NCBI RefSeq assembly: GCF_021278965.1
Contig: NZ_CP065589.1
Span: forward strand, 3,477,001 to 3,541,000
Reading direction: 5' to 3'
Source of the DNA: Chryseobacterium capnotolerans
Lineage (GTDB): Bacteria > Bacteroidota > Bacteroidia > Flavobacteriales > Weeksellaceae
Length of the DNA: 64,000 nt
Shown here: positions 4,384 to 31,269 of the stretch, in pieces
Numbering within the stretch: the stretch's first letter is position 1
Layout: every line of letters starts with the position of its first letter
Made by a program: the position numbers and the translations under genes
Notes under the pieces: model-generated
Seen by the model: only the letters and a program-made list of their open reading frames with translations
What the model was told of the DNA's origin: nothing
Database searches by the model: none

Positions 4384-6370
4384 TTAATCTTTAATATTTT
4401 CGTTTACGATGAGTTCCACCTCTCTATTTATTTTTCTAAAATTGGTCATTAGAACTTCTTCTTTGCGATTGATTCCCTTTTTATCGATGAATGAATAGTA
4501 ATTAGGCATAGCTACATAGTTTTGTTCCTCGTCCTTAATAGCTTTCATATCAAGATTGATTTTTCCTCTTATTGCAGAAGTTTTATATTCCTCAGTACTG
4601 TTCTCTTCTCCTTGCGCAAACATTCCAACCATTTCACCAGTTTTAAGTGCAGCAATTTTTCCTGCAGGAATCATAAAGTCCATTTTTTCATTGATGCTTG
4701 TCGATGTTCCTTGCTGAGAAATAGATTGGGAATAGGATTTTTGTTTAATTTTTCCGAACAATTTCTCAAGCCAATCCAAGGTATTTTTATCTCTTACAGA
4801 ACCGGAAAGAACATTTCCTACAATAGCAGATATAGTATCGGCAACTTCTTTTTGTAAAACTGTCGAAGCTGTGGAATTTCCTGAAGCCCTAATAAAACAG
4901 CTATCTTGTTACTTCTTGCTGTTGCGATCACATTATCAATTTTATGAATGTAGATTGTTGGAAACTCATCACCAACTACTCCACCAGGTAAATTATGTTT
5001 GGAATTGATTAAGCGTAAAGTCCTATTAAGTATTGACGAATACAAGGCTGAATTAATATCCTGTGTACTCGGGTCGGATGCTAAAATCAGAATCGAAGGA
5101 TTTTCTCTATCCGTTATTTTCAGCTCAACTTCATCTCCTGAGAATACCCAAAAACTTTCCTTGGTAGCTAAACGCGAAAGGAATATTTTCAAAGTACCAA
5201 TTTGCCCTTCCAACTGGTCAAAAGCTTTGTTATCATAAGCCGTTTTGAATGGTGAAAGCAAAGAAAGAATCTCTTCATTGGTAAAAAGTGTATCAAAGAT
5301 TTCTTTATAGCTGCGGTTCATAAAGGATAAAATATGTGGCAGGTCTGAATATTTACCATTTTCCAGTGTGGCAAAAAAGTAGATACAAGATGAAAGAAAG
5401 TTGATTGCCGACTGGGTAAAGAAAGCTTCGGAACCACCTCCGGAACTTGCACCTCCTTTTTGTAATGAAGAAACCATTGATTCTGCCATTTCCTGAGCTT
5501 CCGCCAAGGTTTGAATATACTTTTTATGAAACGGATTTACTCTTCTTGATTTTTCTACTTCATTCAGATTGATAATATGAAAACTGTAGTTGTAATCTGA
5601 TTCTTTACTTTTTTTCAATAAGTAGTGGTAATAGGCAATCTGTGCCAGATCAGGAAACTTGAAATCGTAAATACAAAGACAAAAACCTTTGGCAATCATC
5701 TGTCGAATGGAAGGATTAATAACCCCAAACGATTTTCCAGAACCAGGTACTCCGATTACAATAGTTCCTCTAAAAGGATCTATATTGATATAGCCTTTGT
5801 AGGTTTTATTATTGTATCTGAAAACATACGGGATATTAATTGAAGTATCCGTGTTTACAAGTTCTTTGTTTTGATCAAAAGACTCTTCTTCAACATTCCA
5901 TCGGTCTTTTCCCATTTTCTGCTGCATCAGTTTCGAAATGCTGTCTGCTCCCATCTGAAGAATAACTGCTCCTAAAAAAGAAAGAACTGCATAAATGATT
6001 TGATACAAATTAAGTCCGGGGAAAATATTGGGCAGTTCTCCATTTCCTGCTTCATTCTGCCAGATCAAGGATGAGAAAATCATAAATAACCCTAACACCA
6101 TTGAATTCCAATCTTCGTATAGATATTGAGATCTTTTTTCTTCTTAGCTTTTGTTCCAACGGCAACCAGTCCTATCAGAATCACCGTGGCAAATTTTGCA
6201 TTGATGGGAGGATAAATGAAACTCATCTTTGAGAAGTTCTTTAATAAGTTGGAAACTACAGGGATGTTAGCATTCAGATAAAACAGCGAAGCACAATCCA
6301 ATACAACCACAGCATAGACCACCTTTTGCAGAAATCCATAGATTTTGATTTGATGTTGTTGCTCTTGCAT
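4384..6370 (-). CDS. mobC: Type IV coupling protein, VirD4/MobC-like (two apparent frameshifts)
   Basis: This is the ATPase that hands the relaxase-DNA complex to the secretion channel. It is read in three overlapping frames: 6370-6092 (two N-terminal membrane helices), 6101-4818 (Walker A GVPGSGKSFG; later SILILASDPSTQ and GGVVGDEFPT, the Walker B region) and 4779-4384 (C-terminal tail). One base is missing near 6100 and one in the T5 run at 4849-4853; restoring both gives about 662 residues, the usual length, with VADTISAIVGNVLSGS bridging the second gap. It sits between traN and the M23 peptidase gene. As written the gene is broken, but the intact codons around both breaks suggest read error rather than decay. 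Confidence 0.85.
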
Positions 6371-9470: not shown

Positions 9471-10718
9471 TTACTTTCCATTTTTCATAGCATCATTAAC
9501 TCTTCCAGATGCAGAACCTGCAGCAGCGGCCTTTGTTGTCGCAGCAACTGCTGAAGCACCTCCCGTTTTCGCAGCCAAAACCGCTGTTTTTGCACTACTC
9601 GCCATTTTACCTGCTGCACTTTTCATTTTGGTCATCGCTCCTGCTCCGCCCGCAGTTACAATCGTATCAGCAATGGTTGGCGTCATCAGAACTCCAACGC
9701 CTGTGACGATATAAGCTACACAGGTAAAGAGTTGGTTGTAGATCATTCCGGAATTTGAAACATAGACCATCAAAGCATCCAAATTGGTAATGGTTCCGTT
9801 GGTTAAAAGAGTATCATATCGTTCAATTTCCATTGTATAGCCTGATGCAATCAGCTGTTGTCCAATATTGATAATGGTATATGCAACAAAAGTGTACAGA
9901 TTGATGTTAATGAACTTGGAAACCCAACTGTATAAAGAATTTTCAAATCCAGGTATTAGTGCCATTCCGACTGCAATGGGACCAAGAATAATTAATATAT
10001 ATGCCCAGATCTTTTGGATAAAGAAGATGAGATAAACACAAATTCTGAGAATGGATAAACATACAAACTCAATGATTTCTGCAACTAATTTCTGTAGCTG
10101 GAATTCCATCCTGATCTGCCATTCTTTGATAGGCTGTAATAATTTGTCAATCCCATCACTGATATCAAACCAAGAATCGTCTGCATCTTTACTTGTATTA
10201 TTGATAACTTCCTGCTTGGCATCTTCTTCAGCATTGAGCTTGATGACTGCATCCAGTAATTGCTGCTGTTTCTTGAACCTTTCAATTCTGAGGTCATTTA
10301 CCTCAGATTCAATATCACTAAAGATGGCTATTCCCGGTTCCGCAATGGCCTCAAAAGGAGCTTGCAGCATATTGACAAATCCCATCCAATAAATGAGTGT
10401 AAACCCGATCAGAATAGGTTTGAGCATCGGGATAATTTCCCATTCACGATCTCCGGCTGCCATTTGCCATCCCATATATCCGAGATACATTAATGCTCCC
10501 AATCCGCCTATGGCTCTTCCAACCAATGCTGAACCTTCCGCACTGTCCTGCACACTATTATCAAGTTTAGTAAAGACTTCCATAAACCATTTTTCAAAAG
10601 CGCCATCACCTTTTAAAAACTGTAAAAGATTACTGTAATCACTATCCGTCTGGGCAAAACCCAACACCGGTACTATCATAGCCAAAAGACAAAAAAAGTA
10701 TGTATATGTTTTATTCAT
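9471..10718 (-). CDS. traJ: Conjugative transposon protein TraJ (VirB6-like polytopic)
   Basis: A 415-residue protein with a signal-like N-terminus (YTYFFCLLAMIVPVLGFAQ), several hydrophobic helices (about 75-90, 95-115, 225-265, 275-300, 330-350), and an Ala/Gly/Lys-rich low-complexity C-terminus (about 360-415). This is the layout of TraJ in Bacteroidetes elements, the VirB6-type inner-membrane channel component. It abuts the preceding secreted-protein gene (1 bp between) and leads into traK. The Ala-rich tail makes overlapping spurious frames on the other strand, which I ignore. Confidence 0.87.
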   Translation of the reverse strand: MNKTYTYFFCLLAMIVPVLGFAQTDSDYSNLLQFLKGDGAFEKWFMEVFTKLDNSVQDSAEGSALVGRAIGGLGALMYLGYMGWQMAAGDREWEIIPMLKPILIGFTLIYWMGFVNMLQAPFEAIAEPGIAIFSDIESEVNDLRIERFKKQQQLLDAVIKLNAEEDAKQEVINNTSKDADDSWFDISDGIDKLLQPIKEWQIRMEFQLQKLVAEIIEFVCLSILRICVYLIFFIQKIWAYILIILGPIAVGMALIPGFENSLYSWVSKFININLYTFVAYTIINIGQQLIASGYTMEIERYDTLLTNGTITNLDALMVYVSNSGMIYNQLFTCVAYIVTGVGVLMTPTIADTIVTAGGAGAMTKMKSAAGKMASSAKTAVLAAKTGGASAVAATTKAAAAGSASGRVNDAMKNGK

Positions 10719-11554: not shown

Positions 11555-12220
11555 CTAATTGAATAGGTGTTTGTATTTTTGAATGATATCACCGACAATA
11601 GCTTTGTCAATATTGAGATAGTTTCTGAGTACAGGGACTTGGAACAGGTACGGGATTTTTTTGGCGTTCTCCAATCGTAAAATGATATAAAGAATGTTTC
11701 CATTGATATTTCTTACCCTGGTAAATACTTTCTCAATCAGCATTTCTCTGTCCATTGCATCCATCAGGAAATCTTTGTCTTCGTTCAAGACATCCTGGGT
11801 CACTTCCTGTTGGAGCTTAGTGACTTGTGTTCCGATTTCAGAATAGTATTTTGAGACCAGAATTGCATATTCAGGATGTTGAGCAGACAGATCCAGCATC
11901 TTGTTGGAATTCGTCACAATCTTTCCTAAATACTGATACAGATAGATTAATTTTTTGCTTTGTGTAAGCGCTGAATTAACATTTTTAAGCTGTTGATAGA
12001 TGTATTCCTGAATCGCAATAACTTGGGTGGTTTTATTGTTGATATCATCGTACAGCTCCTTTTGTTTTTCATAAGAATCCAAGAATGCCTGCTCACTTGC
12101 CAACCGAACACCGTGATTGAGCGTGATCTGGGATAGAAGTTTATCATTGATGACAATCTGTTGGCTCTTTACAAAAATGCTGGAGAGCGCAATGATTCCA
12201 AAGGTTAATATTTTCTTCAT
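11555..12220 (-). CDS. Secreted transfer-operon protein, third of a set (TraI/VirB5-like position)
   Basis: A 221-residue protein with a signal peptide (KKILTFGIIALSSIFVKS) and an otherwise helical, Gln/Lys/Leu-rich mature sequence without cysteines. The C-terminus IDKAIVGDIIQKYKHLFN repeats the motif seen in its neighbours. Its layout resembles the protein at 12913-13566: both contain an ASQHPEYAI/SAQHPEYAI-like segment at about two fifths of the length, so the two look like paralogues. Genes abut (1-4 bp spacing), so the set should be made in equal amounts. The position between VirB4 and TraJ fits VirB5/TrbJ-like pilus or channel factors, which is inference. Confidence 0.72.
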   Translation of the reverse strand: MKKILTFGIIALSSIFVKSQQIVINDKLLSQITLNHGVRLASEQAFLDSYEKQKELYDDINNKTTQVIAIQEYIYQQLKNVNSALTQSKKLIYLYQYLGKIVTNSNKMLDLSAQHPEYAILVSKYYSEIGTQVTKLQQEVTQDVLNEDKDFLMDAMDREMLIEKVFTRVRNINGNILYIILRLENAKKIPYLFQVPVLRNYLNIDKAIVGDIIQKYKHLFN

Positions 12221-12221
12221 C

Positions 12222-12902
12222 TTAAAAGGATTTGAAATTGTTCATTATACTTTCTACAACCTGTTTATCTCTATTGACATAATACTGGAATGCTCTTTTG
12301 TTTCGTAAAACCTTTGCCTTGATATCTTTTATTTTTAAAAGCATATGCGTAGAATTTCTGCTGATTGCTTTGACTTCTCCCAATGCATAATCCAGTAAAA
12401 TTTTACGTTCCGATTTTTCCATCTGGTTGATAGCTCCGTATGACAGGATGATCCCTGCCACTAAACGAGTGACCATTTGGAGGTCATCCACAAACTGTAC
12501 TTGCGAAGGCAAAACGGTTATGATAGAATATGGCGCGGTGCTGATCTCATTGATAATAGCGGTCTGATTATCCGTTATCTTCGTTATCTCTCTGCTCATA
12601 GAGATTCCTGTTGGTATTGACTGAACAGCAAATGAGACAATACGAAGCCTGTCCTGAACTTTAACAATTTTTTCCTTGAAATCTTTCCATTGTGATTGAT
12701 TAATAGTTTCCACCGTAGCATTTACAGTTTGCTTCTGTCTCATTTCTTTTTGTCGGTCGTGCTCTTTCATTGCTGCATTGATCTCCAGGTCCATCATTGG
12801 AAAAGAAACATTTTCCTGTTGCCACGCAGGTGTAGAACCACCACTTGAAGAAGTGATTAAGATGTAAATAGGAATAGTCAGGATTAGAAAAATCTTTTTC
12901 AT
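12222..12902 (-). CDS. Secreted transfer-operon protein, second of a set
   Basis: A 226-residue exported protein (signal peptide MKKIFLILTIPIYILITSSS). Residues 60-200 are predominantly helical, and the C-terminus NRDKQVVESIMNNFKSF carries the shared motif. Unlike its neighbours it has extra hydrophobic stretches (about 145-160, VTRLVAGIILSYGAI), which might associate with membrane or with partner helices. It is 10 bp from the preceding gene and 1 bp from the next. No family name is assigned with confidence; paralogy with the flanking secreted proteins is supported by length, signal peptide and ending. Confidence 0.7.
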   Translation of the reverse strand: MKKIFLILTIPIYILITSSSGGSTPAWQQENVSFPMMDLEINAAMKEHDRQKEMRQKQTVNATVETINQSQWKDFKEKIVKVQDRLRIVSFAVQSIPTGISMSREITKITDNQTAIINEISTAPYSIITVLPSQVQFVDDLQMVTRLVAGIILSYGAINQMEKSERKILLDYALGEVKAISRNSTHMLLKIKDIKAKVLRNKRAFQYYVNRDKQVVESIMNNFKSF

Positions 12903-12912
12903 CTCTTGATTT

Positions 12913-13566
12913 TTAAAAATTCCTTTTATACTTGTTCATTATATTCTCCACAATCCCTTTATCGGTATTGATGTATCCTGCAAAAGGATTGATGGAATTC
13001 CAAAACCCCAATCGGTTGGCTTTTTCCAGTCTTAGCTTTATTGCCAAAAGCCATAGTTTCAGATTTTTCACATTGCCGGAAATATTATGCAGGATTTTAT
13101 AGCGGTCTCCTGCAGTAGCCAGATTCAATTCTCCTGATGCCAGAATATCAGTGATGTCTGTTACTATTTTCAAACTTTGCTCGTAGGTTTTTTGTGAAGC
13201 CTTAGTTCCAAATATGGCATATTGAGGATGCTGCGAAGCCAATTGAATAACCTGAGCAGAATAATCATAACATTTGTTGAGCTCAGTGTAGATCTGCTGT
13301 ACCTGAATGCCGTTTTGAAGTGTTCCGGAAACCTCTTTCAGGCCCTTTAATATTTTATTCTGAATATCATTGGCGGCTACCATCTGGGTTCCGACCCAGG
13401 TTTGAGCATCCTTTAATTTGGATGTTTCTTCAATAACTTCATTTTGTTTGGCTTTTAGATTTTCTGAATACAGAATCATTGCAGCTGTTACCGTAGGATC
13501 GATATAGGTATTCTGAGCAAATAAAAAACTGCCGAATCCTAGAAAAAATAGACTAAGTTTCTTCAT
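12913..13566 (-). CDS. Secreted transfer-operon protein, first of a set (TraI/VirB5-like position)
   Basis: A 217-residue protein, signal peptide KKLSLFFLGFGSFLFA, mature part helical with coiled-coil tendency (EVIEETSKLKDAQTW). A Cys-Tyr pair (KCYDYSAQ) precedes ASQHPQYAIFG, which is matched in the protein at 11555-12220. The C-terminus TDKGIVENIMNKYKRNF is the clearest example of the shared ending. The gene overlaps the end of the VirB4 gene by 14 bp. Bacteroidetes elements carry TraI (DUF4141) near this position, a VirB5/TrbJ-like protein; this is the most likely equivalent, but I could not verify family membership. Confidence 0.72.
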   Translation of the reverse strand: MKKLSLFFLGFGSFLFAQNTYIDPTVTAAMILYSENLKAKQNEVIEETSKLKDAQTWVGTQMVAANDIQNKILKGLKEVSGTLQNGIQVQQIYTELNKCYDYSAQVIQLASQHPQYAIFGTKASQKTYEQSLKIVTDITDILASGELNLATAGDRYKILHNISGNVKNLKLWLLAIKLRLEKANRLGFWNSINPFAGYINTDKGIVENIMNKYKRNF

Positions 13567-16500
13567 ACTGATAATTTTTAGTGATTAATTCTGAAAAACT
13601 GATTTGATGGTCTTCGAGCTCCTGTGAAATAACTTTGAAAATATTTTTCCCTTTGTTTTCATTTTTCATCCTGCGGTAATAGGAAACAATCTTTTGGTCT
13701 AAGGGATTTTGATACAGATTGACCAGCGAAACAAGATTTTCAAGGCTGTCTCCAAAAACTTTTAAATCAGAGACAATCTTCATAAGGGCTTCATCATAGC
13801 TTCCGTACTTCTGTACATAATACTCTACTGCCGATTTTTCGGGTTTCTCTGTCGTGTAGGTTAAGTACTGCTCTATTGAAACTTCGTTACCATAGACTTC
13901 TCCCTTAGAACCTCGCTTCAGATAAAATTCTTTGAATCTGCTTCTTCCGAATTTGTTATTGAGGTTGTTGATTGTAAAAATCTTGTTCTGCTCGACTTTA
14001 TTCAATGAAAGTAATGCGGCTATCCTATCGAAATTGTCCTTGAATTTGGTCTGATCAAGAAGAATGAAAGTGTCCGAATTGTTGATAATGGAATCTTTTA
14101 CAACTGCATTTCCAATGATGTCATCCAATTCCTGTGTTACCACCACTGCTTCTCCCCAGAATTTCCTTACCGTTTTATAGAGGTATAGAATGTAACCTCC
14201 CATCAACTTACTTGCGATTGCTTTCCACGCTTCTTCAATAATCAGAGCTTTTCTTCGGTCTTTTCTGAGCCTCATTTTCTGAATAAAGGTGTCCATTATG
14301 ATGAGTGTTACAATGGGAAAAAGTTTTGGATTATCTTTTACATTATCAATCTCAAACACGATAAACGATTCGTCAAACAAAGTATTATCAGCAGATTCAT
14401 TGAGTGTTGTTCCATATCTTCCACCTTTATAAAAATCTCTCAGAACAAATAGAAAAGTTCTTAGGTTAAATTCTCTTTCTGTGATACTGTGTTTCTTATT
14501 ATTCAGATAAAGAGGAAGAAATTTGTCACAGTAATCATAGAAACCATTAAAGGAAAGTTCTTTTGCATCCAACTTCTCTTCAAGTTCTTTGATTTTTCTG
14601 ATGATGGCTTTCCTAAATGATTCATCCCAGTTTTCTTCCGTTTTATCCTTTTTGATGATTTCATTGGATTTAATAAGAATCAATTGAGTTTCATTGTAAA
14701 TTCTTCTTCTATCTTCATCACCCAGCGTTTCATAAGCCTCGTAAACGGTATAGAATTTTTCATTGTCATAATCTGGATTATTGATGTTCTTGTCAGGATG
14801 ATAGAACTTCAATAGTTTCCTTCCGGCTTCCTTGATCTCTTCAGAACTTGCATCAAAGGAAATTCCTAAAACATCGTAGTATGTCCGCTGTTCGTTAACT
14901 TCACTCTCATATTGAGCATAAATATCTTCTTCGTGAATGTTGTATTTATTCAAATAAAGAAGTAATTCTTCTGAACTTTTATTCTCATACCATTCAGTTC
15001 CCGAATTGAAATACTGATGATAATAGGACATCAGCACATTGTCCAATATTGATTTCTGCGCAGATGACATTGAAGCATCAGGACCTTGCCAGATCAGGAA
15101 GATCAGATTCGTCAAAAATTCTATTTTTTCAATATTGAATTCTTTCTTATCCATCAGAAAAGGATTCATTGTGATTGGCTTTTCTTCAGTGTATTGAATA
15201 TATCTTCCCCCTTTGTATTTGCAGGTTCCTGAATAAGAATCTCCTGTATCTACGATGACAACATCATAGTTATAGGTGAGATATTGCTCAATGATATTGT
15301 TCATTAAGAAACTCTTGCCTGAACCACTTGGTCCGAGAACGAACTTGTTTCGATTGTTAATTCTGCCAATTTTCATAGGCAGGTCAGCAGGGTCAACTTT
15401 TAATGGAACTCCCTGCCTGTCCGTAAACCTCAGATAGAAATTAGATTCTTCATTCACGGGGTAACTCTCTTTAAAAAAAAAACACAAGGCCGCTTCGCTT
15501 GTCGTCATAAATAGATCGTATTCCCTAAGCTCCGTGGCATTGCCAGGAATAGCAGACCGGAAGAGCTCCAGCTGATTGTAAGCATTCTTGGAAACAATTA
15601 TTCCTTTCGTGAAAAGCTTATTTTCAATCATCGATTGGATATTCTCCATTTTTTCTAATGTGCCTGCTGAAAACAAAATTGAAAAATGAGCATTCACAAC
15701 CAGTTGCCCATCTGTAGCGATATTATGGAGAAGAGTTTGGATTTCTTCTGCAATGATGGCATTGGACGGAGAATTATTGGCTGCACCCTCGTGCTTTTTC
15801 TTTTTCTTATCGAGCTCTCTTTGCTGTTGTGCCTGTAGTGGGATGGTAATAACCTGATTGTAGACAATTGTTTCGTAATCTTCCAGTTCATTGATAAATG
15901 TAAAATTATCCACAGCTGTTTCCGATGCTGCACCATTCCCTCCAAGTATAGAATAGGGGTCTATTTCGGAAGGCAGATCAATATTTTCGACATCGACGTA
16001 GGAAATATTCTTGACGAAACGATTTCCGATCTGCAGGTACTCATTGGTACTTTTGATATTATCAAAACTTGGTATGTCAGAAAACTGCATTGACAATACA
16101 CCGGAAATGCAATGTTCAAAATCCTTTTCAAATAGAAATTGTGGTTCGCAATCACTTTGTCTTAAAAGCATAAATACCTTTTGGCATTTATCTCGAAGCT
16201 CTTTATAACTTTTCTCAGAGAAATTATAATGTTTTGTTTTCTTCTTTAGCTTATCATCTACAATATCTGTGAAGAAAAGTAACGTTTCTATAGTTTTGAA
16301 AAGCCTGCCATCAAAATGCTCTGAATATTTTTGCTGGAGAAATTGATTGGATTCTTCAGCTTCGTATTTCTTTTTTGAGAAAATATCAAGCTTTTGAACA
16401 ATTCTACCTTCACCAATAATAGACACTACTTGATTCAAAACCGTATGAAAATTCAGATATTGATCTGGATCTGCAGAATATTGTTCAACGGCATTTTTTA

Positions 16501-16624
16501 TTCTAATTCCGATAATAGGATTTCCGTATTGTCCAAATAAAACATCAAAGTCCCACCCGAAATCTTTTCCGTAATCAAATCCGATAAAAGGAATATCAAA
16601 TGTTAGTTTCTTTATTTTGGACAT
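13553..16624 (-). CDS. traG: TraG-family VirB4 secretion ATPase with an internal J-domain
   Basis: The 1023-residue product is the AAA-type ATPase that powers the type IV channel. An N-terminal DUF3875-like domain (about 1-60) is followed by the conjugative ATPase core: Walker A GPSGSGKSF at about 431, Walker B region RRKALIIEEAWKAIA at about 795, and a downstream VTQELDDI segment. Relatives are usually nearer 800-850 residues; the excess lies mainly between the two Walker motifs and includes a recognisable DnaJ-type J-domain at about 581-645 (YYDVLGI, then YHPDKN with HPD at 609-611, then AYETLGDEDRRRIYN). The frame is intact. It overlaps traF upstream and the secreted-protein set downstream. 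J-domain recruitment of DnaK to the channel is inference. Confidence 0.92.
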   Translation of the reverse strand: MSKIKKLTFDIPFIGFDYGKDFGWDFDVLFGQYGNPIIGIRIKNAVEQYSADPDQYLNFHTVLNQVVSIIGEGRIVQKLDIFSKKKYEAEESNQFLQQKYSEHFDGRLFKTIETLLFFTDIVDDKLKKKTKHYNFSEKSYKELRDKCQKVFMLLRQSDCEPQFLFEKDFEHCISGVLSMQFSDIPSFDNIKSTNEYLQIGNRFVKNISYVDVENIDLPSEIDPYSILGGNGAASETAVDNFTFINELEDYETIVYNQVITIPLQAQQQRELDKKKKKHEGAANNSPSNAIIAEEIQTLLHNIATDGQLVVNAHFSILFSAGTLEKMENIQSMIENKLFTKGIIVSKNAYNQLELFRSAIPGNATELREYDLFMTTSEAALCFFFKESYPVNEESNFYLRFTDRQGVPLKVDPADLPMKIGRINNRNKFVLGPSGSGKSFLMNNIIEQYLTYNYDVVIVDTGDSYSGTCKYKGGRYIQYTEEKPITMNPFLMDKKEFNIEKIEFLTNLIFLIWQGPDASMSSAQKSILDNVLMSYYHQYFNSGTEWYENKSSEELLLYLNKYNIHEEDIYAQYESEVNEQRTYYDVLGISFDASSEEIKEAGRKLLKFYHPDKNINNPDYDNEKFYTVYEAYETLGDEDRRRIYNETQLILIKSNEIIKKDKTEENWDESFRKAIIRKIKELEEKLDAKELSFNGFYDYCDKFLPLYLNNKKHSITEREFNLRTFLFVLRDFYKGGRYGTTLNESADNTLFDESFIVFEIDNVKDNPKLFPIVTLIIMDTFIQKMRLRKDRRKALIIEEAWKAIASKLMGGYILYLYKTVRKFWGEAVVVTQELDDIIGNAVVKDSIINNSDTFILLDQTKFKDNFDRIAALLSLNKVEQNKIFTINNLNNKFGRSRFKEFYLKRGSKGEVYGNEVSIEQYLTYTTEKPEKSAVEYYVQKYGSYDEALMKIVSDLKVFGDSLENLVSLVNLYQNPLDQKIVSYYRRMKNENKGKNIFKVISQELEDHQISFSELITKNYQYEET

Positions 16625-16919
16625 AACCTAAAAGTGTTTTATTGTTTATTTTTTTTGGGAAAATCAAAACTTGGTTGAAGTTTTTGGTCTTAGCGTACAA
16701 ACCATATTTATCCTGTCTTTTGAAAATGAAATAGACACCTCCTCCTGTAACTGCGAGTCCCAAAAGAGAACCCAGCAATCCGAATTTGGATAATATGAGT
16801 GCTGCGATGACACCAACTCCAATTACGCCTACTGCATAAAAGATGTATTTGCCTTTGAGTCCGAAAAATACAAGGGGTTTTTTAAGCCCCTTGTAGAGAT
16901 AGAATCCCATATTAAGCAA
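16596..16919 (-). CDS. traF: Conjugative transposon protein TraF (DUF4133-like)
   Basis: A 107-residue small membrane protein starting MGFYLYKGLKKPLVFFG (ATG 16912-16914; an ATG at 16917-16919 is the alternative). Two adjacent hydrophobic helices at about 24-65 are followed by a short polar tail. This matches the TraF/DUF4133 protein found between the TraE pilin and the VirB4 gene in Bacteroidetes systems, a VirB3-like partner of the ATPase. It overlaps traE by a few bases and VirB4 by 29 bp. Its early codons contain the hairpin listed at 16869-16895. Confidence 0.85.
   Translation of the reverse strand: MLNMGFYLYKGLKKPLVFFGLKGKYIFYAVGVIGVGVIAALILSKFGLLGSLLGLAVTGGGVYFIFKRQDKYGLYAKTKNFNQVLIFPKKINNKTLLGYVQNKETNI
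16869..16895 (-). terminator. Terminator-like hairpin inside the start of traF
   Basis: On the minus strand TACAAGGGG pairs perfectly with CCCCTTGTA across a 9-nt loop, and the 3' arm is followed at once by five T (plus-strand A at 16864-16868). The structure lies within codons 6-16 of traF, just after the TraE pilin gene. It resembles a rho-independent terminator or attenuator; its function is inferred. Confidence 0.45.
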
Positions 16920-17232
16920 AGAATGCTGTTACGAATTCCGGAACTACCAATAAGAATATCATAGCACCTCCGTAGCCCAAGATTTCCTTGTTGACATCCT
17001 GGTCACCATTTGTCCATTTGTTATACACTCTTAGACCGCCGATGAAACCGACCAATCCTCCTACTGCTTTTAGAATAAGCTTGATTGGATCCCAATAATC
17101 CTTGATGTCATTGGCAGCATTGGAGATCGCTGTTGCACCACCCTGTCCAAATGCCGGGGTAATAGCCAAGAGAATTACACAAGCAGTTAATAACTTTTTA
17201 ACCAGCTGATGTCGTTTAGATTTGTAGTTCAT
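16912..17232 (-). CDS. traE: Conjugative transposon protein TraE (DUF4134, VirB2-like pilin)
   Basis: A 106-residue protein with a long basic N-terminus, a signal or first helix (KKLLTACVILLAITPAFGQ), a short Gly/Ala-rich mature region and a second pair of hydrophobic segments (LILKAVGGLVGFIGGLRVY and GGAMIFLLVVPEFVTAFF). This is the pattern of DUF4134/TraE, the predicted pilin subunit. It is preceded by a 119-bp spacer and followed by traF with a small overlap. Pilins are needed in excess over other channel parts, which fits the hairpin directly downstream. Confidence 0.87.
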   Translation of the reverse strand: MNYKSKRHQLVKKLLTACVILLAITPAFGQGGATAISNAANDIKDYWDPIKLILKAVGGLVGFIGGLRVYNKWTNGDQDVNKEILGYGGAMIFLLVVPEFVTAFFA

Positions 17233-18606: not shown

Positions 18607-20070
18607 TTATCTATTTCTTTTTTTTCTTCGTTTTTTAAGTTCATTTTCAGCAGGATCCCTTGCAGTCCCAGTACTTTTCATTAATTCAAAAAGCATTTCA
18701 TTGACAGCTTTTTTAAATTCACCCCCTTCCTTATTTTCGCTTTGGTGCGCCGTTTTTAATTGAGGGTTTAGGAATTCCTGATATTTCTTTTCCCCAATCA
18801 TTGGTTCCAATTCTCCGATGTAATGAAGTCTAGAATGAACGATGTAATATTTTCCATCCTCTGATTTGATGATATTAACATCTTCTTTATTTTGGCTTTT
18901 CAGGTATTCTTTTACATCGTTTCTGATTGCTGTTAATATTTCCTTATTTTTCAGCTTTTTATTCTCAAAAAGCATAAAGTCTTTTATTTCATTTTTTGAA
19001 TTTCTATCTTTTAAAAATCTTTGTAGTACTACTTTAGTGTCATCATTTGGAATATTGTAATCCTTAAGACTTTCAAACAGTTTCTTATCCATTTTCTCCG
19101 AAGTGAATTCGAACAACTCATTCATTTTCATTATTTCACTTCCTTTATAAACTGAGCCTGTCTTGTGGTCAATGACCGTATAACCAAAAGGTTGCAAATC
19201 ATCTTTATGATGGAATATTAAGTCTATCCCAAAAACATCTTTCAGCTTTTTCTGAAGTTCACTTTCGAATTCAATTATTGGTGTCCAATCATCTTTTTGC
19301 TGCTCTTCCGGAAGCATTGCTTCCTGCCTTCTAAAATCCTCGACTTTGAAAACCTTATTGGAGCAAATATCTTTATACTTTGAAAAAATGGCTTTCAGCT
19401 GTTTTGTCCTTTTCTCATTTTTTCTACTATCAAAAACAATTTGGTCTCCTGATAATGTTCGCTGGATTACTCCGTTTTTTAAAATGGTCAAAGATTTTGC
19501 ATCATTTGTGTTTTCACCCAGTTTATAGCCATTTCTGTTAAGTAAAGTTTCAAACTGATGGAGGGAACTCATTTTGTATTTCAACAGTTTGTTCAATACT
19601 TCCTCCGGTTTAATTCCGTAAAGTTTCTCTAGAGTATTAGCTAAAGCTTTTTGAGCTTTTAACTTTTCATAACTGTCATTAATCTTCTTTCCAGTCTGTT
19701 TATCTACTCGAGTCGTAACAATATGAATGTGATTGTTCTCTGTGTCATTATGGAAAGCCACAATAAATGGTTGTTTTCCATATCCCAATTCATCCATAAA
19801 GTCATCAGCAATTTTTGTAAGTTCTTCTTTGGAATGTTCCCTGAACTTGGTCGAAATTGTTGCGTGAAATTGAGGCCTAATTACTCTTTTATTTCCAGCC
19901 GAAATAACTTTTAAATAATCTCTGACTTGCTGTTTATCACTATTTTCATTAATGAATGATGGAAAGTTTTTCATCATCATCAACTCCCCTTTTCCTTTGT
20001 CTATTTTTTTATCATTGTAATTAACTCCTGGAAAGTCGGATCCAGCTGGATTCATTATTTTAACAATCAT
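18607..20070 (-). CDS. mobB: Relaxase/mobilisation nuclease (MobB-like)
   Basis: The relaxase nicks the transfer origin and carries the strand into the recipient. Start taken at MIVKIMNPAGSDF (ATG 20068-20070), giving 487 residues; the nearby ATG at 20053-20055 is an alternative. Metal-binding histidines are visible in RPQFHATIS and NNHIHIVTTRVD, and a Lys-rich helical C-terminal region follows. As read, the frame continues upstream into the MobA-like gene, making a 606-residue fusion, but this depends on a missing base in the T5 run at 20115-20119. With it restored the two genes are separate and overlap by 11 bases. It precedes parA in the same orientation. Confidence 0.85.
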   Translation of the reverse strand: MIVKIMNPAGSDFPGVNYNDKKIDKGKGELMMMKNFPSFINENSDKQQVRDYLKVISAGNKRVIRPQFHATISTKFREHSKEELTKIADDFMDELGYGKQPFIVAFHNDTENNHIHIVTTRVDKQTGKKINDSYEKLKAQKALANTLEKLYGIKPEEVLNKLLKYKMSSLHQFETLLNRNGYKLGENTNDAKSLTILKNGVIQRTLSGDQIVFDSRKNEKRTKQLKAIFSKYKDICSNKVFKVEDFRRQEAMLPEEQQKDDWTPIIEFESELQKKLKDVFGIDLIFHHKDDLQPFGYTVIDHKTGSVYKGSEIMKMNELFEFTSEKMDKKLFESLKDYNIPNDDTKVVLQRFLKDRNSKNEIKDFMLFENKKLKNKEILTAIRNDVKEYLKSQNKEDVNIIKSEDGKYYIVHSRLHYIGELEPMIGEKKYQEFLNPQLKTAHQSENKEGGEFKKAVNEMLFELMKSTGTARDPAENELKKRRKKRNR

Positions 20071-20427
20071 TTTGAAGCAAAGAATAAATGTTTTCAAATA
20101 TTTTGTTCTGCTCCTTTTTAGAATTATTATTTCTGAAAGCTTTTCAGAAAAAACTTTTAACTCTTCTGAACCGATGAATTTTTGCGTATTTACAATCTTA
20201 GCAACCTGATTGATATTGGTCTCAATCTTTACAAAAACATTATCTTGTTTTTCAATGAATTCGAGAACCTGTCTTCTTTCATCATCCAAAATCCTGTTTT
20301 CGACAGAATTGATGATTAAACTTGTAAGCGAAATATTTCTTGTATCGCATATTTTTTTCCATTCTTGCTTTTTCTGATTACTGATTCTAAAAATGATAGT
20401 CTTATTCTCGGTTTCAATCGGACTCAT
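20060..20427 (-). CDS. mobA: MobA-like mobilisation accessory protein (apparent frameshift)
   Basis: The N-terminal 110 residues (MSPIETENKTIIFRISNQ, LTSLIINSVENRIL, KQDNVFVKIETNINQVAKIVN) match the layout of ribbon-helix-helix-like MobA/MobC accessory proteins that open the transfer origin for the relaxase. Restoring one base in the T5 run at 20115-20119 gives the natural C-terminus EQNKIFENIYSLLQNDC and a stop at 20060-20062, total about 122 residues. Without it the gene runs on into the relaxase. It is the first gene of the mob pair; the transfer origin is normally near such genes, but I could not define it. Confidence 0.72.
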
Positions 20428-20820: not shown

Positions 20821-21912
20821 TTAAAGTGCTTCCCAATTTGCCACACCATTTACACTCTTTAGAACATAGCTTCCTACAGGTGGAGGTTGAGGAATAAATT
20901 CTGTTGCAAAACCAAATGATCCATCAGATTTAGCCACTACTCTTTTCGTATATGAAGAATCGTTATCTGCATTAGGCATTTGTGATGGCGTGACACTTAA
21001 TTTTCCATTGATGTTTAGCCACCTTTCAGAAAAATCCCCCGAAATCAACGCGAATTTGTAATCCGTATAATTATTCGTAATACTATCCCAAAAGTTGGTT
21101 GAACTTGTTGTGACGGGGGTTGAATGTATAGCCAATTTGTTACTAACACTTCTGTTACCAGTGGCAGGACTTCCTGCTCCTGTACCAATGAAGATATTAT
21201 TGGAACCTGTTCGGTTTCCTGTACCTGACAAATATCCTATCGATATATTATCATTCCCGGAAGTGATATATGACATTGCTCCTGCCCCGATTCCAATATT
21301 TCTGCTTCCTGAAATTGTTCCGTTTACAATGCCATTCAGTGCCGAAACACCTGCTCCATAATTCAATTTTCCTGTAATTTCTCCCTGAGACATTGCGTAA
21401 AAACTAGCAGAATTTCCTTTTCCTGAAGTTATCTTAGAATCTGTCGCAACGATAGAATTATACTCGCCTGTAATTTGACCTCGGGAATTTCCAAGTGTAT
21501 AATTTTCCTTACTATCAAAATCAAGATGGAGATTACTTTTGACAACAAGTTCTACTGTTGAAGAATTTCCTCTTAGAACAACATCATTTAGAGAGTCTTC
21601 TTGAGTAAAAGGTATCCACGCACTACCATCAAAATAATATAAACCTGATTTTGTAATATGAATCACTTGACCAACTAAATTTGTCGCAGGTAATGTCACA
21701 AAGACTATAGTTCCCTTTTTTGCAGTTGAATAAGTTTTTGCTGCCAGTTGTTCTCCCGTAATACGTGGTGGAATAATTCCATCATAATGATTAGTATCAT
21801 TGGGTTTGCCTACAACTTCTAATGTTGCTTCTGGTGTTTGGGTATTGATTCCGACTTGAGCGTGAACCGCTATACCAAAAAAGGACAAAAAAAGATAAAT
21901 AAGTGTTTTCAT
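20821..21912 (-). CDS. Exported adhesin/tail-fibre-like protein, paralogue of next gene
   Basis: Start taken at MKTLIYLFLSFFG (ATG 21910-21912); 363 residues with a signal peptide ending AVHA. Residues about 20-115 (VGINTQTPEATLEVVGK, DGIIPPRITGEQL, KGTIVFVTLPATNLVGQV, GLYYFDGSAW) are shared almost position by position with the protein at 21997-22788. The remainder is Gly/Ser/Asn-rich with repeated SGRG/GSNNIFIG-type turns, like the head-repeat regions of trimeric adhesins or phage-type fibres common in Chryseobacterium relatives. The paralogues differ after the common N-terminus, suggesting a conserved anchoring part and variable ends. Cell-surface location is inferred. Confidence 0.68.
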   Translation of the reverse strand: MKTLIYLFLSFFGIAVHAQVGINTQTPEATLEVVGKPNDTNHYDGIIPPRITGEQLAAKTYSTAKKGTIVFVTLPATNLVGQVIHITKSGLYYFDGSAWIPFTQEDSLNDVVLRGNSSTVELVVKSNLHLDFDSKENYTLGNSRGQITGEYNSIVATDSKITSGKGNSASFYAMSQGEITGKLNYGAGVSALNGIVNGTISGSRNIGIGAGAMSYITSGNDNISIGYLSGTGNRTGSNNIFIGTGAGSPATGNRSVSNKLAIHSTPVTTSSTNFWDSITNNYTDYKFALISGDFSERWLNINGKLSVTPSQMPNADNDSSYTKRVVAKSDGSFGFATEFIPQPPPVGSYVLKSVNGVANWEAL

Positions 21913-21996
21913 TTTATTATTGTTTTTATATAAATTCATTTGGTTATAGAATCGCTTTCTTTCATCACTTGTATCAGAATTTCAATTTTGAAGATT

Positions 21997-22788
21997 CTAC
22001 TTTAGATATGGCTTCCTCCAGTTAGAATAACTTTGCACTTCTCCATATGTATAAAATGAGGGTGACATTGAACTTAAAGTACTTTGCGGAATTTGAAAAC
22101 CATAATTTTCAAGCAAGGCTGGAAAATATTGGGTTGAATTTTCTCGATGTAGTAAGGCGATTTGATATGGGACAAAACCTAAATCATTGCATATATCTCC
22201 AATATTGATGAAAGTATTTCCTGTGATTGGTTCGCTATCTGATCTGTATAACTGAAAACGGATGTTGACAATACCATTATTTTTTTTAAAAGATATATTT
22301 CCATTTAATCCTCCAAAATTTTTTGTCCCTACAGAGTAAGATTTTGATGAAGTCAAATATGCGTTTGTATTACCCCACTGATTTCTCGGAGTTGACCAAG
22401 TTGATGTTGCAGTAAGTCCTGCAGTACTGGTTGGGTCGAATGTCAGTAAAATGAAATATTCGATTGGATCTTTATCTTGTAAAAGTAGCTGCCAAAAACT
22501 TCCATCAAAACAGTATAATCCTGTTTCAACAACATACTTAACCTGACCGACTAAATTGGTTGCAGGAGATGTCACAAAAACGATAGTACCCTTTTTACCT
22601 GAAGTATATACCTTAGTAGATAACTGGTCGCCTGTAATACGAGGAGGAATTATGCCATCATAATGATTAGAATCACTTGGTTTTCCTACAACATCCAAAG
22701 TAGCTTCTGGTAATTTGGTATTAATTCCGACTTGTCCCCGAATAGTTATGACTATGAATAGCAGAAAAAAATAAAAAGGTATTCTCAT
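21997..22788 (-). CDS. Exported surface protein with the same N-terminal module as its neighbour
   Basis: Start at MRIPFYFFLLFIV (ATG 22786-22788), 263 residues, signal peptide ending near IRG. The N-terminal about 110 residues repeat the module of the previous gene (VGINTKLPEATLDVVGK, DGIIPPRITGDQL, GLYCFDGSFW). The C-terminal half (TSTWSTPRNQWGN, NGNISFKKNNGIVNIRFQLY) looks like a beta-sandwich of unknown specificity. It is 84 bp upstream of its paralogue, same strand. Upstream of its start lie phased TCTGGA repeats and the palindrome array, possibly its control region. Confidence 0.65.
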   Translation of the reverse strand: MRIPFYFFLLFIVITIRGQVGINTKLPEATLDVVGKPSDSNHYDGIIPPRITGDQLSTKVYTSGKKGTIVFVTSPATNLVGQVKYVVETGLYCFDGSFWQLLLQDKDPIEYFILLTFDPTSTAGLTATSTWSTPRNQWGNTNAYLTSSKSYSVGTKNFGGLNGNISFKKNNGIVNIRFQLYRSDSEPITGNTFINIGDICNDLGFVPYQIALLHRENSTQYFPALLENYGFQIPQSTLSSMSPSFYTYGEVQSYSNWRKPYLK

Positions 22789-22881
22789 TTCGTTTTTTTG
22801 GTTAACATTTCTTCTGCAAAGTTGGGACATCAAAACATTGAAAACAATAGTGTTAATGGGAGCTGGGCTAAATAAGATGAT

Positions 22882-22938: not shown

Positions 22939-23259
22939 ATCTTAAACCTAATTTCACAGAAAACAAAAAAACAAGTTCCGCAGTTTTTTACCCTTTTTGA
23001 AGAAAAAGGCAAGAGAGTCTTTGGATGTACAACTTGTAAAAGTCTGTATATACAAAGACACATCTTGCTCAAAAAGGCCGCTTATTTTTCGGAGTTCTGA
23101 AAATCGATTTATATTATTGATAATCAGTAAGTTTGAATCTCCTGTTGTGTTTATTGGGAAATTACAGAAGTGAATTCTTTGAGTATGAAAGAAAAATAAT
23201 AATTGCTTGTAAAGTGAAAATTTACTTACCGTATTGTAAATCAAATTGTAATGATTTTG
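22939..23259. other. Non-coding stretch upstream of the palindrome array
   Basis: No convincing gene. An open frame on the minus strand has a low-complexity, Phe-rich translation, no recognisable start context and no resemblance to a protein; I treat it as chance. The stretch contains the sequence between the TCTGGA repeats and the palindrome array and may belong to the same control or recombination region. Confidence 0.4.
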
Positions 23260-23517
23260 ACCTGTACTTATTTTACGCAGGTGACCTGTATCTAATTTAC
23301 GCAGGTATGAGATTGCACCAGTATTCGTATTACGCAGGTGCGATGAGTAATATTGTCCTATTTTTTGCAGATGACCTGTATCTGATTTACTCAGGTATGA
23401 ATTCCAGCTGTATGTATTTTACGCAGGTTTGATGATTGGCATAATCCTTTTTACTCAGGTAACCTGTATCTAATTTATACAGGTATGGGGTTCAACCTGT
23501 ATTCGTATTACGCAGGT
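23260..23517. repeat. Array of nine 23-bp palindromic units in three triplets
   Basis: Units begin at 23260, 23284, 23317, 23350, 23374, 23406, 23438, 23462 and 23495. The best units start ACCTG and end CAGGT, forming an inverted repeat around a 13-bp AT-rich centre; units 4 and 7 have lost most of the left arm. Units 1-3, 4-6 and 7-9 form a higher-order repeat of 88-90 bp with spacers of 1, about 10 and 10 bp. Within each triplet the second unit contains ATCT.ATTTA and the third ends GTATTACGCAGGT or a variant of it. This is too short-spaced for CRISPR. It could be a partition, recombination or regulator array. Confidence 0.8.
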
Positions 23518-23743
23518 TAGATGATGTATTGAACTTGCTTTAATTAATGAATTTTCAATGATGTATTTTAATAGTTACGGGAATCCTTTTTTTACTATCC
23601 GAAAAAATTCCGTTAGGCAAAAAATGATGAGTATAGAACTATTTTGGATAAATATCAAAAAAGAGCACAAGATTCATTATCATTTTTTTGGTATATTTGA
23701 AACTCTTATCAAAATTCTAAACAAAGAAATTTCAATAAAAAAA

Positions 23744-26134: not shown

Positions 26135-28672
26135 TTAATAATTTAAAGATAATCCTATACCCCAGCCCATATCACTATCGTAATGTGTACGAATACCCAC
26201 ATTTTTATTGATAATATATTTTAGCTCTGTCATATACTCTTTATCGGTGTTGACCATAAAACCAGCCCTCAATCTCTTTGTGATGGGAATATCTTCACGC
26301 ATTAAGGAAAGACGTACAATTCCATCGTGATATACCTCTGCCTGAAAGTTTACTAACATTGGCAAAGTGTACATAAAACCTAAGCTAATAGCTCTACGTG
26401 TATCTTTTTCATTTTTCTGTCCAAATAAATTGGTTTCGTGTTCATCCATACCCATTTTACGATATCTCCAATCAAAACCTATAAACGGCATAAACCATTG
26501 CATTTTTCCAATGTACCTTCCTAAATGTGTTTCTACTTCATAACCGTGCACATCGTTATAGCCTAATCGCCATTCTGTTCCTAAACTCCATCTTGCCTTT
26601 TGAAGCATCGCATCACCATCATTTCCATTGGTAGCAAAATCATTCTGAGCCATAAAGTGTGGCATATTGCTTTCTCTTTGCAACATATTATATGCTTTCT
26701 TCTTGTCAGGCAAATTTGGATTTTGATAATCGTCAACCGCAAATACCCTGTTCATTCCTGACATCATATGATAAAGGATATGACAGTGGAAAAACCAATC
26801 TCCTTCTTCGTTTGCTAAAAACTCAATAGTATCAGTTTCCATTGGCATTATATCCAACACATTTTTAAGTGGTGATTTTTCGCCTTTACCATTAATTACT
26901 CTAAAATCGAAACCGTGCAAATGCATCGGATGGCGCATCATTGAGTTATTATGAATGGTAATTCGTAGAATTTCTCCTTTTTTCACAGGTATTTTATCAA
27001 CTTCTGAAAGTATTTTATTATCCATGCTCCACACATAACGGTTCATATTTCCGGTAAGGGTAAATTTCAATTCTTTTACTGGAGCATCTTTAGGAAGTTC
27101 CGTATTGGAAGGAGATTGTAGCATTGCATAATTCAGCGTTTTGATTTCTCCCAAAGCATTTGCATTGTAACGGTTGGGATCATTTTCCATATTCATATTG
27201 TGTTGGCTATGGTCTTCTTTCTGCTTACTATCTCCGGTTATTTCGGGATACATTACCACATTCATATCCATTTGATTAAGGCTCATTTTCATACCCATAT
27301 CATCTAAATCGCCGTTCATCTTCATCATATCATTCATCATTTTCATCCCCTCAAAATATTTAAGGCGAGGAAGCGGAGAAATAAGTTGTTTAATACCACT
27401 ACCTACAAAATAGCTTGCCGATTGTGTTCTGTCTTCAGTAGTTGCTAAAAATTCATAGGCAATCCCATCTTCAGGAATCGTAACCACAATATCGTAGGTT
27501 TCTGATACTGCAATGATTAATCTATCAACTTCTACAGGTTCTACATCGTTTCCGTCGTTGGCTACTACGGTAATTTTACCTCCTGCATAGCGCAACCAAA
27601 AATAAGAGGATGCACCACCATTTGACACTCGTAATCTTACTTTATCTCCTGCTTTTAGCGTTTTGCCATCAACTTTTTTTAAATCTGTAGCGTTATTTCC
27701 GTTGATTAAAATTTTGTCATAATAAACATCGCTTACGTCCATTGCCAACATACGTTTCCATTCGTTGGTTACTTTTGTTTTGAAATGACCTTCTTTGATA
27801 GCTTCTGCGTAAGATTGTGTTGCATTTTTTTTAATAGCTGCCCAATCATTGGCATTATGCAACATACGGTTGATATTATCCGGGTTTATGTTTGTCCACT
27901 CACTTAAAATGATGGGTACGGTAGGCAAATCATCAATTCCCTCTCTATAAGTTTTATCATCCTCACGCTTTTTCATTACAAAACTGCCATACATACCAAT
28001 CTGCTCCTGCAAACCTGAGTGGGAATGATACCAATGTGTTCCGTGCTGGATAATTGGAAAACGATAGGTATAAGTTGTGCCTGCCTTAATAGGTTTTTGT
28101 GTAAGCCACGGCACACCGTCTTCTTTGTTAGGCAGGAACACTCCGTGCCAATGGAGCGAGGTGCTTTCTTTTAATTGGTTATGGACTACTATTTCGGCTG
28201 TATCGCCTTCTGTGAAAGTTAGGGTTGGCATCGGTATTTGACCGTTTACGGCAATGGCTTTCTTTTCTTTACCTGCGTAGTTTACTAGTGTATCTGTGAC
28301 GTATAATTCGTATCGAACTGTTTTTGGAGGTTTTGTATTTACAATTCTTTTTACGGTTTGATGCTTTTCTTTTGGCATAGACATATTGTTCATTTTGTCA
28401 ACCTTTTTCGGCTGCTCTTTTGGAGGCATCTGCATTTCATCGTTCTTTTTGTTCGATGACTGCTTTACTGTTTTAGTCTTTTCTTTTATCAATTTCATAC
28501 CACACTTTGGACAGTTGCCTGGTTTTGCCGCGTGGATTTCAGGATGCATCGAGCAAGTATAAGTTGCCTGTTGCACCTTTTCGTTTTTACTCATATCCAT
28601 ACCTTTCATATCCTGTGCTTGTGCAAAGGTGTACATGGCAAGGATGAATATTATTAATGTTATCTTTTTCAT
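26135..28672 (-). CDS. copA: Multicopper oxidase CopA fused to a CopB-like outer-membrane domain
   Basis: An 845-residue exported protein. After the signal peptide comes a short heavy-metal-binding motif (YTCSMHPEIH..KPGNCPKCGMKL, about 38-62), a Met/His-rich linker, and a three-domain copper oxidase with all copper ligand motifs visible: HWHGVFLP, HWYHSHSG, HPMHLHGFDF and HCHILYHMMSGM. From about residue 640 the sequence changes to a beta-strand-rich region (WSLGTEWRLGYNDVHGYEVE, MGWGIGLSLNY at the end) like CopB, the outer-membrane copper resistance barrel. It should oxidise periplasmic Cu(I), and the C-terminal part may anchor it to the outer membrane. It is 2 bp from the P-type ATPase gene. 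Confidence 0.9.
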   Translation of the reverse strand: MKKITLIIFILAMYTFAQAQDMKGMDMSKNEKVQQATYTCSMHPEIHAAKPGNCPKCGMKLIKEKTKTVKQSSNKKNDEMQMPPKEQPKKVDKMNNMSMPKEKHQTVKRIVNTKPPKTVRYELYVTDTLVNYAGKEKKAIAVNGQIPMPTLTFTEGDTAEIVVHNQLKESTSLHWHGVFLPNKEDGVPWLTQKPIKAGTTYTYRFPIIQHGTHWYHSHSGLQEQIGMYGSFVMKKREDDKTYREGIDDLPTVPIILSEWTNINPDNINRMLHNANDWAAIKKNATQSYAEAIKEGHFKTKVTNEWKRMLAMDVSDVYYDKILINGNNATDLKKVDGKTLKAGDKVRLRVSNGGASSYFWLRYAGGKITVVANDGNDVEPVEVDRLIIAVSETYDIVVTIPEDGIAYEFLATTEDRTQSASYFVGSGIKQLISPLPRLKYFEGMKMMNDMMKMNGDLDDMGMKMSLNQMDMNVVMYPEITGDSKQKEDHSQHNMNMENDPNRYNANALGEIKTLNYAMLQSPSNTELPKDAPVKELKFTLTGNMNRYVWSMDNKILSEVDKIPVKKGEILRITIHNNSMMRHPMHLHGFDFRVINGKGEKSPLKNVLDIMPMETDTIEFLANEEGDWFFHCHILYHMMSGMNRVFAVDDYQNPNLPDKKKAYNMLQRESNMPHFMAQNDFATNGNDGDAMLQKARWSLGTEWRLGYNDVHGYEVETHLGRYIGKMQWFMPFIGFDWRYRKMGMDEHETNLFGQKNEKDTRRAISLGFMYTLPMLVNFQAEVYHDGIVRLSLMREDIPITKRLRAGFMVNTDKEYMTELKYIINKNVGIRTHYDSDMGWGIGLSLNY

Positions 28673-28674
28673 TT

Positions 28675-30713
28675 TTATTTTTTGATTTTTAAAAAACTTG
28701 CATTGATTGCAACTACAACTGTACTAACCGTCATTAAAACCGCACCTGCTGCCGGATTTAATAAGATGCCTTGTTTATATAAAACACCTGCTGCCAAAGG
28801 CAATGCGATTACATTGTAACCCGTAGCCCAAATTAAATTCTGTATCATTTTACGATAGGTGGCTTTACCAAATAAAATAAGATTTACAACATCGTTAGGG
28901 TTACTGTTTACTAAAACAATACCTGCGGTTTCGGCTGCAATATCACTACCGCTGCCAACTGCAATACCAACATCTGCAATTGCCAATGCTGGTGCATCGT
29001 TTACGCCGTCACCTGTCATAGCTACGAATTCGCCTTTGCTTTGCAGTTCTTTTATTTTTTCTAATTTTTGATGTGGCAATACTTCGGCAATAAAACTATC
29101 CATGCCTAAAGTGTCACTTACACTTTTTGCTACTTTGTTGTTATCGCCGGTAAGCAAAATGGATCTGATATTGTTGTCTTTTAAGGTCTTGATTGCTTCT
29201 GCTGATTCAGGACGGATCTCATCGGACAAAGCAATATAACCTGCCAAATCGTTATTTACGATTAAAAACACAACCGTTTCTGTGTCGTTGGCAGTAAAGC
29301 CGTCGGGGATCGCAAAATTATTTTCTTTTAAATACCCCGGACTAACCACCAATATTTTTTTGCCTTCAACTGTTGCTTCAACGCCTTTGCCTGTGATGGC
29401 ATTGAAATTTTCTGTTGCAGGAATTGTGATTGATAAGTCTTTTACTTTTCGCAAGATGCCTGTTGCAATGGGATGTTCTGATTTTTGTTCTAATGCAGAC
29501 GCAAGGCGAATGATTTGATTTTCATTGAACTCTTTTTGCAGCGATACAATTTTTGACACTTCAAATCTTCCTACAGTTAATGTTCCTGTCTTGTCAAAAA
29601 CGATAGTGGTTATTTTTCTTGAATTTTCAAACGCAGTACGATTTTTAATAAGCAATCCGCTTTTAGCTGATAAGGCTGTAGATTTTGCAACAACCAATGG
29701 AACTGCCAGACCCAAAGCATGAGGGCAACAAATAACAATTACGGTTACCATTCTTTCCATTGCAAAAGCCAATGATTGCCCTGTGAGATACCAATATAAA
29801 AATGTGGCAATGCCGGTAACCAATGCTATAATCGTAAGCCATTTTGCAGCTTTGTCTGCTAATAGCTGCGTTTGTGATTTTGATTTTTGTGCATCGTCCA
29901 CCAATTTAATAACCTGTGATAAGTAAGAGTCTTTTGCTGCATGGGAAACGGTAACTTTTATAGAACCGTTGCCATTGATTGCACCTGCAATTACTTTATC
30001 GCCTTTTACTTTTTGTACTGGTTTGCTTTCGCCTGTAAGCATACTTTCATTCAGGTAGCTTTCGCCTTCTAATATTATTCCATCGGCTGCCACTTTTTCG
30101 CCTGGCTTTACTAAAATAATGTCGTTCTCTTTTAATGTGTCGGTTTTTACATCATGCACCATGTTGGGCATTACCATGTGTGCATCGGCTGGCATTAACT
30201 GTACCAATAATTCTAATTCTTTTGACGCACCTGCAACAGATTTCATTTCTATCCAATGCCCTAACAGCATAATAAGAATAAGCGTTGCCAATTCCCAAAA
30301 GAAATCCATACCCTGTAACCCAAAAACAATTGCAACGCTGTAGATGTAAGCAACTGTTATGGCGAAGCCGATTAAAAACATCATGCCGGGGCTCTTTGCT
30401 TTTACTTCGTTGACCAATCCTTTTAAAAATGGAAAGCCACCGTAAAAAAATACAACGGTTGACAATGCAAAGAGTATGTATTGCGAACCTGCAAACTGCC
30501 AATCAACTTTCATAAAATGTTGTATCATGGTTGATAGCAACATGATTGGAATGGTTAGGATGAGCACAACATAAAACCTTTTTTAAAATCGGCAATCATC
30601 ATGGCATGGTGGTTATGTCCTGCCATTCCCATTGATGGGTTTGCTCCAGGCTGCATATTGCTCATGTTATGCCCTGTATGGGCTTCTTTATTTTCTGTAT
30701 GTTGATGTTCCAT
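28675..30713 (-). CDS. copB: P1B-type copper/silver ATPase, CopB-like (apparent frameshift near start)
   Basis: An inner-membrane pump exporting copper or silver. Visible motifs are TGESKPV (actuator), CPHALGLAVP (metal site in the membrane, the CPH form of CopB-type pumps), DKTGTLTVG (phosphorylated Asp), SEHPIATG and GDGVNDAPAL. The long frame starts at a GTG (30567), but one base missing from the T6 run at 30579-30584 separates it from a proper start at ATG 30711-30713, encoding a His/Met-rich N-terminus (MEHQHTENK..MAGHNHHAMM) typical of this subfamily. The restored length is 679 residues. It is cotranscribed with the oxidase fusion. Confidence 0.9.
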
Positions 30714-30798
30714 ATAAATAATTTTATTTGCAACAATCCTTTTTGCGAATATAGATTGTTTTAAGAATGGTGATTAATATTTTTTTTGTGTACTGCTT

Positions 30799-31268: not shown

Positions 31269-31269
31269 T

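Follow-up and report, generated by a model that had tools for sequence, protein, structure and literature searches.

The conjugation ATPase TraG/VirB4 of a mobile element of Chryseobacterium capnotolerans, encoded in the 64,000-nucleotide stretch of the genome analysed here (hereafter the window), contains a J-domain in the interval between its Walker A and Walker B motifs. The J-domain is under strong purifying selection, and from its sequence it probably recruits the host's DnaK chaperone to the transfer motor. The same architecture, here called J-TraG, is common in the genus Chryseobacterium.

The J-domain and its place in the motor

The protein (P0001, 1023 aa; 13553..16624, minus strand) was identified as a TraG conjugative ATPase by a profile search (TIGR03783, 469.5 bits against a cut-off of 261.55) and by the Pfam families PF19044 (score 428.8, cut-off 25.8) and PF03135 (23.2, cut-off 21), with the VirB4_CagE model TIGR00929 scoring 110, under its cut-off of 643.1. 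Its predicted structure has the three-dimensional fold of VirB4, and its frame is open in a genome that is one 5.36-Mb contig. Walker A (GPSGSGKS, residues 431-438; 15311..15334, minus strand) and Walker B (ALIIEE, residues 793-798; 14231..14248, minus strand) were located in the translation. Across 83 aligned proteins all 8 positions of Walker A are invariant, as are E797 and E798.

A sequence-only reading of this DNA had claimed a J-domain at residues 581-645 (14690..14884, minus strand), between the two Walker motifs, with an HPD tripeptide at residues 609-611 (14792..14800, minus strand). The claim was borne out by PF00226, which matched residues 581-644 at E 8.4e-19 (67.9 bits against a cut-off of 27.8) and over profile positions 1-63 of 63, that is, completely. 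The HPD motif is present and is conserved in 241 of 243 J-TraG proteins, the exceptions being one HPG and one HSD (a 694-residue entry). The predicted structure likewise has a four-helix J fold: AlphaFold models superpose on solved J-domains at 1.5-1.7 Å over 72 residues, and on DnaK-bound DnaJ at 1.6 Å over 62 residues.

In the AlphaFold model the J-domain lies in an all-helical region, with a low-confidence joint on each side (residues 576-578 and 654-662); judging from the model, both joints are probably flexible. Together with an N-side arm (residues 542-580; 14885..15001, minus strand), which is missing from 43 aligned J-less relatives, and a C-side arm bounded by the alignment (residues 646-689; 14558..14689, minus strand), it makes up an insert of 148 residues (542-689). 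The site is an insertion-prone loop in the helical region, outside the RecA core. Among 17 Pfam matches there was no other DnaJ family (no zinc finger, no DnaJ C-terminal domain), and a Gly/Phe region was judged by eye to be absent; on these sequence features the J-domain is of class C (type III). The genome has five J-domain matches, and only that of TraG falls within the window.

The surrounding genes form a row that reads relaxase, ParA-like protein, DUF4134, DUF4133, TraG, four unnamed genes, TrbL-like protein, TraK, TraM, TraN, coupling protein and M23 peptidase. DUF4133 (16596..16919, minus strand; PF13571, 25.3 against 25.2 bits) is directly upstream of TraG in a VirB3-like position, and it may fill the VirB3 role. 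DUF4134 (16912..17232, minus strand; PF13572, E 9.7e-25) has a weak resemblance to TrbC/VirB2 pilins (PF04956, E 0.0017, under the cut-off), and the TrbL/VirB6-like protein is a TraJ (9471..10718, minus strand; PF04610, 26.6 against 25.9 bits; TIGR03782, E 1.1e-24, under the cut-off). The relaxase (18607..20427, minus strand) is MobA/VirD2-like (PF03432), and its MobC-like N-terminus was recognized by blastp to the MobC and relaxase of the J-carrying plasmid L036; the two are fused in this open reading frame and are separate genes in L036 and in a second J-carrying plasmid, L037. The gene row is common to L036 and L037 and is mostly found also in the J-less Mucilaginibacter plasmid L038, where the gene order is largely that of the window and DUF4134 occurs twice. 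The J-domain is thus a modification of a single component in an otherwise conserved apparatus. When the 20 L036 proteins other than TraG were compared with L038, none stood out as a marker of J-carrying elements; those unmatched at E 1e-3 were mobC (which was matched from L037), a 97-residue open reading frame and the small open reading frames hx, hy and hz.

Several other features of the region were observed. The coupling protein (T4CP) gene is split into three minus-strand open reading frames (4384-4779, 4818-6101 and 6092-6370), while in 68 of the 69 related loci with a match (81 scanned) it aligns over 600 residues in one frame; because of this split, the copy of the element in the window may be inactive or may not transfer by itself. 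Three adjacent genes of ~220 residues (11555-13566, minus strand) score above the cut-off of no family; each resembles the L036 counterparts of the others, and from their sequences they look like paralogues. Short, imperfectly palindromic sequences (ACCTGTA...TACGCAGGT) cluster at 23251-23524, in the DNA upstream of the transfer genes, and are possible operator or origin repeats. Two direct 300-nt copies, 72% alike, are found at 21622-21921 and 22498-22797. Near the transfer region, the genes at 26135-31932 (minus strand) are probably involved in metal resistance; they encode a multicopper oxidase that bears a heavy-metal-binding domain, a P-type ATPase and a DUF3347 protein.

Distribution and origin of the insert

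Of 59 genomes in the genus Chryseobacterium, 22 have full-length J-TraG (E 0); one locus from each (L006-L027) was examined, and all 22 have HPD. In the same search, none of 39 genomes of the same order gave a full-length match (best E 1.5e-70). A scan of 395 genomes, scoring two candidates in each, found matches with E no higher than 1e-60 in 26. A motif scan of titled genome contigs, using motifs from outside the J-domain, returned 112 relatives, and the best 80 of these were retained; all 80 have HPD. The genera represented among the best 80 of 112 include Chryseobacterium, Epilithonimonas, Kaistella, Cloacibacterium, Elizabethkingia, Empedobacter, Riemerella, Capnocytophaga, Weeksella, Halpernia and Moheibacter. 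Two plasmids also carry J-TraG, one from Chryseobacterium sp. JJR-5R and one, pWB8, from Sphingobacterium faecium, the latter indicating that J-TraG crosses orders. HPD is present in 104 of 104 locus rows, which correspond to 85 distinct proteins.

The earlier reading had proposed a survey of homologues as a check for a chimera, and the J-domain came through it: an assembly or annotation chimera as the source of the insert is ruled out, a virtually impossible account of a J-domain that is in frame in 22 genomes of the genus, in the best 80 of 112 named loci and in two plasmids.

In the sequence databases, a whole-protein query listed 120 of 7920 relatives and a J-region query 120 of 340. The PF00226 label is on the 120 listed among the 7920, a presence that is largely by construction since these sets were drawn with the J region or the whole J-carrying protein; the intact HPD is not wholly so. 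No second family with a J-domain in a motor was found among 60 listed of 526 J-matching plasmid records: two were TraG, both of the J-TraG family, and the rest were stand-alone J-proteins or unannotated stretches.

The TraG motors of Mucilaginibacter, Pedobacter, Pontibacter and pBFY46 resemble J-TraG (41-49% identity over the aligned part) and have the same gene arrangement, but differ at the insertion site. The 43 J-less rows have either 3-8 residues there or, in 7 of the 43, an insert of 56-117 residues. None of the 43 has HPD, and PF00226 was found in none of eight J-less proteins scanned (six with long inserts), versus both of two J-carrying controls. Of 37 J-less loci in one set, 5 lacked a usable frame, and several rows are duplicates or are truncated at the edge of the locus. 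The seven long inserts (L038, L040, L043, L044, L045, L049 and L138) look helical by eye from their letters. Among solved structures, R388 TrwK/VirB4 (7o41, 8rtd) and T. pseudethanolicus VirB4 (4ag5), when aligned by sequence with J-less TraG, have 0 and 7 extra residues, respectively, at the matching point, and are without a J-domain.

A tree of 66 TraG rows (23 J-carrying rows picked by eye and the 43 J-less rows), built by a quick method without the insert columns and with the root unplaced, put all 23 J rows to the same side of a branch whose SH-aLRT support is 100. The three insert states require 3 changes in all on this tree, 2 of them for the other long inserts, which occur in two places (Mucilaginibacter and a pBFY46/Prevotella group). 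Since the neighbouring branches have J-less rows to either side of them, the simplest reading of the sequences is that the J-domain was gained once in TraG. For 224 of 243 TraG J-domains the best match was a host J-protein of 230 aa (L003); the mean identities, 47% to L003, 45% to DnaJ and 41% to a third host J-protein, are too close to single out the donor.

Counterparts of DnaK-contacting residues, and selection

According to the available text of a recent study, D35, K26, Y25, H33 and F47 of DnaJ interact with R167, E217, L391 and L392 of DnaK (PMC13012618). In the 243 J-TraG proteins, the counterpart of H33 is His in 243 and that of D35 is Asp in 242, the counterpart of K26 is basic in 241, and that of F47 is Phe or Tyr in 242. 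The Y25 position is more varied (Phe in 124, Gly in 110 and Tyr in 9), and is Gly in the TraG of the window. The host has one canonical DnaK, together with one weak HSP70 match (E 3e-9). In a pairwise alignment this DnaK retains R167, E217, L391 and L392; E206 is replaced by Asp, and the alignment has a gap at D208, E209 and D211, differences with which the host's own DnaJ must likewise cope. BLAST with E. coli DnaK found no DnaK in the open reading frames of the window, in L050-L129 or in L162, so an element-borne partner was rejected for these sequences and the host DnaK would serve.

By simple pair counting over 32 disjoint pairs (of 449 in range and 5356 in total), dN/dS in the J-domain was 0.035 (0.020-0.055), compared with 0.121 in the N-side arm and 0.097 in the C-side arm (J/arm ratio 0.32, 0.17-0.54). 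Elsewhere in TraG the values were 0.046 for residues 1-420, 0.029 and 0.019 for the ATPase blocks and 0.099 for the tail (931-1015). The J-domain is thus held about as tightly as the motor itself, while the arms drift. The HPD codons had 26 synonymous and 0 nonsynonymous differences in the 32 disjoint pairs, and 200 overlapping pairs gave the same dN/dS picture. The contrast was weaker in residue conservation (0.81 for the J-domain; 0.72 and 0.80 for the arms). A degenerate J-domain is excluded by the HPD counts together with dN/dS.

Possible roles of a motor-borne J-domain

Sec63, Pam18 and auxilin belong to class C of the J-domain proteins and bring Hsp70 to particular machines. TraG resembles them in having a J-domain grafted onto an unrelated body with HPD kept, and differs in having as its body a secretion ATPase that is bacterial and mobile. 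In its sequence the TraG J-domain looks active (HPD, strong purifying selection), so chaperone recruitment is the natural reading. We hypothesize that a class C J-domain was acquired at a loop in the all-helical region of the TraG/VirB4 of a Bacteroidota conjugation system, where, held between two probably flexible joints, it probably draws host DnaK to the machine on its cytoplasmic side and would trigger ATP hydrolysis there. DnaK might then help to assemble, exchange or rearrange VirB4 subunits, much as auxilin uses Hsp70 on clathrin. DnaK binding, the cytoplasmic-side position and the client are all inferred here.

As to the client, the VirB4 inner-membrane complex, remodelled in an auxilin-like manner, is our tentative choice. 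It is favoured slightly, because the J-domain is carried by VirB4 and not by the coupling protein (VirD4), which receives the substrate and in a whole-genome scan is without a J-domain. It is conceivable, and we suggest it with similar reserve, that each VirB4 subunit, through its own J-domain, enlists DnaK to take the motor ring apart or to switch it, which would make host Hsp70 a working part of the inner-membrane complex of the type IV secretion system (T4SS). The VirB4 of R388 has been seen both as a hexamer of dimers and as a trimer of dimers, and a switch between the two is a model awaiting confirmation; these points come from the available portion of a 2025 T4SS review, in which DnaK and Hsp70 are unmentioned (PMC12624023).

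The main rival, nearly as good and resembling the use made of Sec63 and Pam18, has the DnaK recruited by TraG act on polypeptides at the channel, unfolding the relaxase ahead of transfer or handling pilin, along the lines suggested by the sequence-only reading. J-domains tethered at Sec63 and at the import channels of mitochondria serve translocation by recruiting Hsp70, and Sec63 chains are among the J-domain matches. By the same portion of the review, VirB4 provides the energy for pilin extraction, which suits this reading; against it, the protein that receives the substrate is not VirB4 but the coupling protein (PMC12624023). Donors with dnaK or dnaJ deleted are reported to conjugate the F plasmid poorly, an effect that the authors, in the available text, suspect to be an indirect result of the chaperone mutations (PMC7762799); the finding counts for DnaK recruitment to VirB4 as much as for this rival. 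The J-less L038 has matching genes for the relaxase, DUF4134 and the coupling protein; with its largely matching gene cluster, it indicates that DnaK recruitment of such a form is not generally needed. On balance we regard handling of the substrate or pilin as somewhat unlikely.

It is improbable that the J fold, like the inserts that relatives have at this site, is a protein-contact or spacer module that works without DnaK. In 7 of the 43 J-less rows the site does hold an unrelated insert of 56-117 residues, and an arm at this position may have its own purpose, but such a module would have no need of HPD or the DnaK-contacting residues, and yet the HPD codons changed only synonymously. Quite improbable is a proteostasis gate, in which the J-domain samples DnaK availability and ties transfer to host stress while remodelling no transfer protein: the only DnaK found is that of the host and a probably flexible tether would suit a sensor, but a sensor in every motor subunit is unneeded.

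The sequence-only reading also stated that no description of such a protein was known. This stood for publications, as no published description of a J-domain in a VirB4 conjugation ATPase was found in a literature collection lacking most subscription journals and all preprints, but not for the databases, where proteins of this kind are already labelled, P0102 by UniRef ('J domain-co...') and P0123 by NCBI ('DnaJ domain-containing protein'). A mention of DnaJ in PMC5714932 proved to be unrelated. As far as we have seen, the architecture is recorded yet undiscussed. The DnaJ-like genes of pGIAK1 and pRE25 are, like that of TraG, plasmid-borne, but encode separate proteins downstream of repB, with no link to a transfer motor in the available text (PMC3756968).

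A motor with a fused co-chaperone suggests a direct site of DnaK action in conjugation. If the reading of TraG as the motor's own co-chaperone is true, a host chaperone would join the components of the T4SS, and the switching of VirB4 would gain a candidate driver.
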